From: Candidatus Gastranaerophilales bacterium
Lineage (GTDB): Bacteria; Cyanobacteriota; Vampirovibrionia; Gastranaerophilales; Gastranaerophilaceae
Assembly: GCA_944323335.1 (NCBI GenBank)
Contig: CALUSB010000006.1
Location: forward strand, 1-64,000
Length of the DNA: 64,000 nt
Direction: 5' to 3'
Part shown: piece by piece, positions 58,981-64,000 of the stretch
Layout: each line of letters begins with the position of its first letter
Numbering within the stretch: position 1 is the first letter of the stretch
Position numbers and translations under genes: made by a program
Notes under the pieces: generated by a model
Seen by the model: the letters and a program-made list of their open reading frames with translations, nothing else
The model's database searches: none
Told to the model about the DNA's origin: nothing

Positions 58981-59046
58981 ACAATTTACAATGTTCAAAT
59001 TGATTGGTATGAAATATTATAGCAGTTTTTACTCATTTTTATAATA

Positions 59047-59074
59047 AAAAGACCCCTTGATAGGAGTCTTTTTA
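59047..59074. terminator. terminator hairpin (structured RNA; old tRNA-His terminator on the other strand)
   Basis: AAAAAGAC and GTCTTTTT flank a short G/C step (AAAAAGACCCC..GGAGTCTTTTT, one mismatch) around 59047-59074, ending in a T-run on the plus strand. On the minus strand it directly follows a duplicate of the tRNA-His 3' end, so it may be the original tRNA terminator. Confidence 0.65.
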
Positions 59075-59089
59075 TGGGGCGGGTGATGG
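59070..59089 (-). repeat. duplicate of tRNA-His 3' end (att-like direct repeat)
   Basis: The 20 nt TTTTATGGGGCGGGTGATGG here are identical to 59266-59285, which includes the last 15 nt of tRNA-His with CCA (minus strand CCATCACCCGCCCCA). Only this fragment of the tRNA is present. Confidence 0.85.
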
Positions 59090-59133
59090 CAATAGTATTG
59101 AATTTATTACGCTTACGCTATAAATTCATACTT

Positions 59134-59189
59134 TGCATCCATAAAATCACGAAATCAAAGATTTCGGATTTTTTGTAGGGTTCTCACCC
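59134..59189 (-). repeat. structured repeat core, copy A
   Basis: On the minus strand this 56-nt block matches 63929-63984 at 51 of 56 positions without gaps. It contains the perfect palindrome CGAAATC-TTT-GATTTCG and a GGGT-gaga-ACCC mini-hairpin whose partner copy keeps pairing through a G-T change. It is 3' of tRNA-His in the same orientation. Confidence 0.8.
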
Positions 59190-59234
59190 ACTTTACGGGT
59201 CTTTCGACCCGTGTGGGTTCTAACTCAACCAAAA

Positions 59235-59270
59235 TAAAATAGGTTACAGCTTTTGCTGTAACCTATTTTA
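59235..59270 (-). terminator. terminator of tRNA-His
   Basis: TAAAATAGGTTACAGC (59235-59250) and GCTGTAACCTATTTTA (59255-59270) form a perfect 16-bp stem with a TTTT (AAAA on the minus strand) loop immediately after the tRNA CCA end. Confidence 0.8.
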
Positions 59271-59347
59271 TGGGGCGGGTGATGGGGTTCGAACCCACGA
59301 ATATCGGAACCACAATCCGAGGCCTTAACCACTTGGCGACACCCGCC
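59271..59347 (-). tRNA. tRNA-His (anticodon GTG), CCA encoded
   Basis: On the minus strand the acceptor GGCGGGTG pairs with CACCCGCC, followed by encoded CCA. The extra 5' G (G-1) opposite C73 is the histidine identity element. The anticodon arm TCGGA-TTGTGGT-TCCGA gives GTG, and the T arm carries GTGGGTTCGAACCCC with the GGTTCGA loop. Confidence 0.97.
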
Positions 59348-59470
59348 ATAAACTTATTTAATTGTCACTTTAATATCGGAACTAATCTCCCGACACCAAG
59401 CCGCCACTTTTAACTAAAGTGCCATATACCCTAATATATTTCAAACAAAAACATAATTCAAGATTTTTGA

Positions 59471-63487: not shown

Positions 63488-63882
63488 GGGGACGTTGTGG
63501 TTTTGACAGGGTGCTTTATCAACCGTGATGCAGGCCGCGCGGATGTTGCGCGTTACCAACAATCAAAAAAATAAACGCTAATAACGTTGTAAAAGCTGAC
63601 TTTGCTCCCAGAGCAATCGCTGCATAGTTTGCGCGACAGCCACTCTATCTTGCCAGCTTGCCGCAATTTAGGGTCAATTATGCAAGCCTTAACACTTGTA
63701 GCTTGAGGCGCAGGCGTTTAAGTATTTAGCCTTGAGGGGTTGTCTTTCCTTATAAAAAAGACTTTGGCGCTTAATTTGGTTGAAGACATCTTTCCGATTT
63801 TGCGTTGAGATAAAAAGATTCTAAGCTTGTAGATTCGCGCTTGTTATCATTTTGGACGCGGGTTCGACTCCCGCCGTCTCCA
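63488..63882 (+). ncRNA. ssrA: tmRNA (one-piece)
   Basis: The 5' end GGGGACG pairs with CGTCTCC before discriminator A at 63882, and the 3' part carries a tRNA-like T arm (GCGGGTTCGACTCCCGC). The CCA end is not encoded. The tag reading frame starts at GCT 63577 and encodes ANNVVKADFAPRAIAA before TAG at 63625-63627. ANN at the start and a C-terminal Ala-Ala are typical of cyanobacterial tags. The RNA rescues stalled ribosomes with SmpB and marks proteins for degradation. Confidence 0.95.
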
Positions 63883-63928
63883 GTATTATTTTAATAAATT
63901 GAAGTCGTTGGAGTCAAAGCCGCGTAGC

Positions 63929-63984
63929 GGGTGAGAATCCTACGACAAATCCGAAATCTTTGATTTCGTGATTTGACGGATGCA
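63929..63984 (+). repeat. structured repeat core, copy B (downstream of tmRNA)
   Basis: This 56-nt block matches copy A (59134-59189, minus strand) at 51 of 56 positions. It contains CGAAATC-TTT-GATTTCG and GGGTgagaATCC, and is preceded by CCGC-gta-GCGG, which replaces the CCCAC/GTGGG arms of copy A while keeping them paired. It starts about 45 nt after the tmRNA 3' end in the same orientation, and similarity continues (AGCGTAA) to the window edge. Confidence 0.8.
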
Positions 63985-64000
63985 GTTAGCGTAAAATTTC

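Follow-up and report, generated by a model that had tools for sequence, protein, structure and literature searches.

tRNA genes are the best-known docking sites of mobile DNA, and the usual searches for insertions discard cases that lack an integrase or are shorter than 2 kb. Several kinds of very small or modular insertions are known from bacteria: MITEs, REP/BIME sequences and the small dispersed repeats of cyanobacteria are tiny, palindromic, gene-less and presumably mobilised in trans, the Rickettsia palindromic elements are structured insertions of about 100 bp that lie inside genes and also hit RNA genes, and integron gene cassettes form order-swapped tandem arrays with folded sites. The islands that target tRNA and tmRNA genes have been catalogued in Islander, where an integrase gene and a length of at least 2 kb are required and only tyrosine integrases are stated as known to target tRNA genes (PMC4383910). 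In Dehalococcoides, islands associated with the serine recombinase DsiB are found as tandem insertions at the tmRNA gene ssrA, with 20-bp repeats of its 3' end, insertion in the T-loop and a dsiB gene that overlaps ssrA (PMC3146451). As far as the concept is set out in the same paper (PMC3146451), CIMEs are elements of which only the attachment ends are kept, and att-site accretion is their accumulation in tandem.

The locus considered here lies in a window of 64,000 nucleotides, the whole stretch of DNA that was analysed, from a Candidatus Gastranaerophilales bacterium whose genome is denoted G000; the relatives compared with it are numbered likewise (G003 etc.).

The tRNA-His locus

The features of the locus, and of the second RNA gene of the window with a related sequence, are as follows.

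59271..59346, minus strand: tRNA-His (gtg), the target gene (tRNA gene calling and Rfam)
59070..59265, minus strand: inserted 196-bp module, measured from a point in one repeat copy to the same point in the other (match to the empty site of G003)
59266..59285, minus strand: tRNA-proximal (inner) repeat copy of 20 nt, of which 15 nt belong to the tRNA 3' end (exact repeat)
59070..59089, minus strand: outer repeat copy of 20 nt, corresponding to the tRNA-His 3' end that was displaced (exact repeat)
59234..59271, minus strand: the module's own terminator-like hairpin after the tRNA, with 17-bp arms and a T run (folding; unlike the native terminator)
59213..59224, minus strand: tRNA-His T-arm in inverted form, reading GTTAGAACCCAC on the tRNA strand (sequence; a matching inverted T-arm occurs in the 3' modules of other tRNAs)
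59195..59212, minus strand: short hairpin ACGGGTCGAAAGACCCGT, with the inverted T-arm piece on one side and the direct piece on the other (sequence and folding)
59178..59191, minus strand: direct T-arm-like piece GTGGGTGAGAACCC, with the T-loop TTCGA changed to TGAGA (alignment with the tRNA-Ser and tmRNA modules)
59089..59208, minus strand: conserved core R1, common to the tRNA-Ser(gct) and tmRNA modules (E 1.3e-32; compensatory changes at 9 pairs)
59144..59171, minus strand: core hairpin AAATCCGAAATCTTTGATTTCGTGATTT (folding and compensatory changes)
59095..59131, minus strand: core hairpin GTATGAATTTATAGCGTAAGCGTAATAAATTCAATAC, adjoining the outer repeat (folding and compensatory changes)
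59044..59075, minus strand: native tRNA-His terminator, now beyond the module (directly 3' of tRNA-His in G003)
63488..63882, plus strand: tmRNA gene, the second target within the window (RNA gene calling and Rfam)
63883..64000, plus strand: related module M1 after tmRNA, 161 bp, which continues to contig position 64043 and is followed by M2, 178 bp

An earlier, sequence-only reading of the window had pointed to a 20-nt repeat containing 15 nt of the tRNA-His 3' end and spaced by 196 bp, and this repeat is indeed exact over all 20 nt (59070-59089 and 59266-59285); with tRNA-His at 59346-59271 on the minus strand, the inner copy includes 15 nt from the 3' end of the tRNA. The same reading described the segment as gene-less, with hairpins and a core also found after tmRNA, in agreement with which there is no ORF of at least 80 aa between the two repeat copies and a 71-nt piece of the segment recurs at 86% identity just 3' of tmRNA (63916-63984), while the complete 196-bp segment is present in a single copy in the genome. 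Going outward from the tRNA, its end is followed by a strong hairpin that has a T run, by GTTAGAACCCAC (the T-arm region in reverse complement), by a short hairpin, by the T-arm-like GTGGGTGAGAACCC, by two more hairpins, by the displaced tRNA end and finally by a second terminator. The stretch folds with a z-score of -12.9, none of 200 shuffled sequences being equally stable. Searching the window against Rfam 15 gave only tRNA and tmRNA at gathering scores, and the modules gave no convincing match even at permissive thresholds. It should also be mentioned that degenerate repeats of the 5' part of tRNA-His are seen upstream of the gene, both in the window (59347-59440) and at loci L009, L010 and L013, in numbers that vary by species.

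Presence and absence in related genomes

When 59070-59265 is removed from the window, the remaining sequence matches the close species G003 at 480 of 489 positions without a single gap, and G003 accordingly carries an empty site, of the kind that the sequence-only reading had proposed to look for among close strains. The segment is therefore either a clean insertion or a clean excision, and we conclude that it was inserted precisely at the tRNA-His end. In G003 the outer terminator sits directly after tRNA-His, which identifies it as the original one, as surmised from the sequence of the window, while the hairpin that now follows the inner repeat copy (59271-59234) is a different, terminator-like one. 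A chance repeat is ruled out by the exact 20 nt, the empty site and recurrence in other species.

The DNA of the adjacent RNase HIII gene is 97.0% identical between the window and G003. The segment is furthermore present in four additional species (G008, G010, G002 and G007) with 94.5-97.8% identity, where the neighbouring RNase HIII gene is only 77-81% identical, and the fact that its presence does not track relatedness favours horizontal acquisition, although strong constraint on the segment could be an alternative cause of its high identity across species. Other sites vary in a similar manner: the tRNA-Ser(gct) site is empty in G000 and G003 and holds two identical tandem modules in G009, and the module at tRNA-Glu is found in zero (G009), one (G003) or two (G000) copies between flanks that are nearly identical between the species. 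The sequence-only reading had named three observations that would speak against it, namely the segment in all relatives, no further copies at tRNA ends and no empty site, and none of the three was made: G003 lacks the segment and has an empty site, the same core also occurs at tRNA-Ser(gct) and tmRNA, and modules are found at many tRNA genes. The notion that all of this stems from errors in metagenome-assembled genomes could be raised because several contigs end at tRNA modules, but corresponding loci carry the same modules in genomes that were assembled independently and come from different species, with species-specific substitutions, and assembly artefacts can for practical purposes be dismissed as an explanation.

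Modules with core R1

A covariance model of core R1 was searched against 15 genomes of the genus, probably Candidatus Galligastranaerophilus. All strong matches with a readable flank in these 15 genomes adjoin one of three genes at its 3' end, namely tRNA-His, tRNA-Ser(gct) or tmRNA, and most of them terminate in a copy of the adjoining gene's own 3' end. Two matches at contig edges (G012 and G014 C1) have no RNA gene in view and terminate in the tmRNA and Ser 3' ends, and one weak match (E 5e-4) is located elsewhere. The R1 consensus exhibits compensatory changes, altering both sides, at nine base pairs.

At tmRNA, three module types occur in arrays of differing order and content, being M1-M2 in G000, M2-M1 in G007 and G008, M2 in G009, M3-M1 in G003 and M1-M3 in G014. 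M1 is 97.8% identical between G000 and G007/G008, whereas the tmRNA itself is only 85-87% identical. A further family of long modules is found on the 5' sides of tRNA-Tyr and tRNA-Pro, as M3 at tmRNA and at tRNA-Ser in G011 (L252), with common motifs of the type GGCGACGT...ACAGGAGC at both 5' and 3' positions.

Modules on both sides of tRNA genes

In this genus about 40% of the tRNA genes are accompanied by modules of 85-200 bp, which are found on the 3' or the 5' side in 0-3 copies. This figure comes from a survey of genome stretches for near-exact copies of the tRNA end (12 or 13 of 13 nt) at most 330 bp away, which scored 12 of 31 tRNA genes in G000, 13 of 30 in G003, 15 of 36 in G009 and 16 of 34 in G014, a few true tandem tRNA-Pro genes being included among the positives. 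The contigs of many genomes break at tRNA modules (e.g. C11 and C24 of G000, C1 and C3 of G112), and for this reason the module counts are probably too low.

Every module ends in a copy of its own tRNA's end, and most hold an inverted T-arm (3' side) or D-arm (5' side). A downstream module is built of a terminator, the inverted T-arm, hairpins and the final nucleotides of the tRNA sequence. In upstream modules the components are the initial 13-14 nt of the tRNA, hairpins, the D-arm region in inverted form and a leader that extends up to the real tRNA. The longest inverted match averages 11.7 nt to the D-arm in 5' modules and 10.9 nt to the T-arm in 3' modules, compared with 5.8 and 5.9 nt after shuffling, and where the match is long it falls, for upstream modules, on the D-arm region (about nt 5-30) and, for most downstream ones, on the T-arm; a minority of modules, including the long Tyr and Pro types, are without a long inverted match.

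The leader motif TTGAMAATTDAATA is conserved between promoter and tRNA upstream of many tRNA genes of the genus (for example tRNA-Gly, Val and Asp in G000) and is duplicated along with the 5' modules. The idea that the motif before 5' modules is itself a promoter was rejected, since a sigma-70-like promoter sits further upstream; the motif looks more like, and may be, a boxA-type leader element. On the 3' side of tRNA-Lys(ttt) in G014 (L158) there is a second, broken tRNA-Lys copy with a hairpin inserted inside the anticodon arm.

One may ask whether the modules are simply decayed tandem duplicates of tRNA genes, seeing that the period of the short ones corresponds to a tRNA plus spacer (about 90 bp) and that true tandem tRNA-Pro genes exist. 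However, the module interiors are non-tRNA sequence common to modules at different tRNAs and in different genera, simple duplication yields no inverted arms, and the long modules are larger than one tRNA, so that decay of duplicates appears a very improbable origin; simple tRNA duplication is in fact excluded by a non-tRNA core common to a dozen tRNA types.

Core R2 across the order

The same survey found no positive among 55 genes in G020, G022, G030 and G045, and four among 10 in G023. The clean G020 had suggested that the phenomenon is limited to the genus, an idea that was overturned by modules with a second core, R2, in G023 and G015, through which this core was found, and by an order-wide search. 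R2 modules have the same layout as those with R1: the tRNA is followed by a terminator, a modified inverted T-arm (GATGAGAACC), a short hairpin, a direct T-arm ending in TTCGAG, a core of about 100 nt and finally the remainder of the T-loop with the tRNA 3' end. Within Gastranaerophilales, R2 is present in 291 of 383 genomes, which belong to 34 of the 52 genera, with up to at least nine per genome, and a phylum-wide search (E<=1e-6) gave no match outside the order among the matches listed. G000 itself has no R2 match, R1 being its counterpart with the same layout.

Among 46 R2 matches inspected around the best-scoring loci, 34 have a tRNA upstream on their own strand and terminate in a copy of its 3' end matching at 11-13 of 13 nt, a proportion that does not represent a random sample since the loci were picked by score. 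The tRNAs behind these 34 are of 12 types (His, Asn, Thr, two Lys, Met, four Ser, Gly and Tyr), and the exact 3'-end copy in R2 modules is usually 16-19 nt long and thus starts in the T-loop. The other matches mostly terminate in recognisable tRNA 3' ends, the tRNA being cut off by a contig end or lying behind a larger gene-bearing insertion. Gene-bearing stretches resembling prophages or islands are seen at L331, L332 and L334 (in G126, G141 and G137, respectively) where the tRNA of the R2 module is expected, which suggests that larger elements have been inserted there between tRNA and module.

This breadth bears on the possibility that the modules are host elements under selection, i.e. structured RNA or DNA flanking tRNA genes and serving expression, 3' or 5' processing or protection from integrating elements as spare attachment sites, in which case the observed variation would be loss and gain by recombination between repeats. 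Such a role is in agreement with a core structure kept by compensatory changes, with the symmetric use of both gene ends by inverted arms fitted to the tRNA, with the occurrence of modules in many genera and with the larger integrated elements found at the same tRNA ends in relatives, and conserved pairing could be a sign of host function. It is however in poor agreement with the clean empty sites of very close species that lack a particular module, with the fact that most tRNAs of the same genome have no module, with the position of 3' modules behind a terminator and with the swapped module order at tmRNA, and we regard a host function as an unlikely explanation.

Candidate recombinases

The insertion had originally been ascribed to a tyrosine recombinase, which is unsupported. 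A resident tyrosine integrase was rejected as candidate, since G000 has two full-length tyrosine recombinases, both apparently Xer-sized (294 and 309 aa), and one contig-edge fragment, and no connection of any of these with the modules was found. The same tRNA-His site is occupied in relatives by elements of about 6.5 kb (G014, L034) and 9.9 kb (G005, L035) with large serine recombinases of Resolvase, Recombinase and zinc-ribbon domains; the frame of the recombinase crosses tRNA-His in antisense and closes with ...GAGDGVRTHEYRNHNPRP, its final codons being the antisense strand of the tRNA gene. A related recombinase gene lies at the same place in G009 (L036), and a remnant is found beside the 196-bp module in G007. 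The 9.9-kb element of G005 also encodes a 292-aa protein that, judged by eye, resembles reverse transcriptases.

These elements raise the question whether the modules are stripped-down remnants of tRNA-targeting islands, i.e. cis-mobilisable sequences retaining only attL and attR, that are moved in trans by island recombinases such as the large serine recombinases at tRNA-His. The two elements of G014 and G005 at the very same 3' end, the related recombinases in G009 and the remnant adjoining the module in G007 speak for this. A comparison of ends points both ways, the tRNA-end repeat being common to the module and the serine-recombinase elements at tRNA-His and the inner ends not. The large tRNA-His elements are, however, without the R1 core. 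Furthermore, a single recombinase cannot account for one core at 12 or more tRNA types, and the modules share structure with each other, not with the island beside the same tRNA, which makes an origin as island remnants rather improbable. A phage or plasmid origin of the cores was likewise rejected, as exact-pattern scans of viral contigs for the R1 and R2 cores gave zero matches, as did a scan for the His-end pattern and a blastn search of an R2 module against phages and plasmids; no autonomous relative with the core was found by these scans and searches.

A model for the modules

On balance we find it fairly likely that the 196-bp segment represents an integrative module, non-autonomous and gene-less, and one of a class of 85-200 bp found at many tRNA and tmRNA ends of Gastranaerophilales. 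The sequence-only reading thus had the outline right, but it was too narrow, since the class extends across genus and order and to both the 5' and 3' sides, and the enzyme it proposed is wrong or unproven. The module would consist of a structured core, its own terminator and a spare tRNA-His 3' end, and would be inserted within the T-arm/3'-end part of the gene; the tRNA remains intact because the module supplies its 3' end, and the displaced native end with its terminator would come to lie 196 bp away. The clean empty sites, the patchy distribution and the swapped arrays probably reflect insertion as a unit at the tRNA-proximal end, as in integrative elements though without genes, and being gene-less the segment depends on something in trans.

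The first step would be precise insertion at the tRNA end, to which the empty site testifies directly. Modules may then spread between species and between different tRNA genes, a movement that we infer from the occurrence of one core at different targets, from a patchy distribution, from high identity between diverged species and from the swapped tmRNA order, and recombination between direct repeats may subsequently change the copy number, as suggested by identical tandem copies. Joining would take place in the T-loop for 3' modules and near the D-loop for 5' modules, presumably by a trans-acting recombinase or another strand-joining activity, and the inverted arm is predicted from sequence and folding to pair with the spare tRNA end inside the module and not with the real tRNA.

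Ordinary site-specific recombination fails to explain the different target-matched arms of one core, since normal attP arms are not changed for each tRNA; recombination of this kind would give one element with one target, whereas here the arms of each module are those of the tRNA beside it. Any of three processes could give rise to such arms, namely copying of the target at the time of insertion, gene conversion at a later stage or selection for pairing. More speculatively, and in our estimate possible rather than probable, the modules may represent a new class of selfish element in which a core enters the T-loop or D-loop of a tRNA gene and builds its arms from the target at each insertion, for instance through template switching or from a copy of the tRNA transcript. 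If this is true, one core could colonise any tRNA harmlessly.

We found no description of such modules in the open-licence literature searched, and the class as a whole appears to be undescribed. An order of gut Melainabacteria in which numerous gene-less modules adjoin the ends of tRNA and tmRNA genes, on either side of the gene, with cores common to different tRNAs and arms fitted individually, raises the question of which activity inserts them and how one core acquires target-matching arms; it would widen the definition of a mobile element and explain rapid variation beside essential RNA genes.

Comparison with known systems

Modules differ from MITEs, REP/BIME sequences and the small dispersed repeats of cyanobacteria in that these are not known to be tied to tRNA ends or to carry target-matched pieces, while modules have both. 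Terminal inverted repeats of a transposase, short target duplications and scattered sites, by which MITEs are recognised, were not found, as the readable strong R1 matches are all at tRNA or tmRNA 3' ends and the repeats flanking the modules are the tRNA end itself. The Rickettsia palindromic elements, unlike the modules, are not known to have a duplicated tRNA end or a target-matched inverted arm. As compared with integron cassettes, the modules carry no genes, and no integron integrase, attI or RYYYAAC/GTTRRRY boxes (the boxes judged by eye) were recognised.

CIMEs, as outlined in PMC3146451, carry cargo genes and have in that outline no common structured core across unrelated targets, whereas the modules are gene-less and have such a core. 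The large serine recombinase running antisense through tRNA-His parallels DsiB at ssrA, but the Dehalococcoides islands are multi-kilobase and gene-bearing and the modules are gene-less and found at many tRNAs (PMC3146451). There is also a likeness in layout to the Islander islands, whose limits are likewise marked by an intact tRNA and a displaced copy of its end, for which both 3' and 5' fragments are known and tmRNA is a common target, and for which the T-loop/T-stem junction is a known crossover region (PMC4383910), much as proposed for the modules. Judged by the features used there, the module has an intact tRNA and a displaced 3'-end copy, yet no integrase (no ORF of at least 80 aa) and only 196 bp in place of 2 kb or more; the rejection of candidates that are shorter than 2 kb or lack an integrase would explain why modules are missing from that catalogue. 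What sets the modules apart from the islands is that they are 85-200 bp long and without genes, that several occur per genome and that their arms are fitted to each tRNA.
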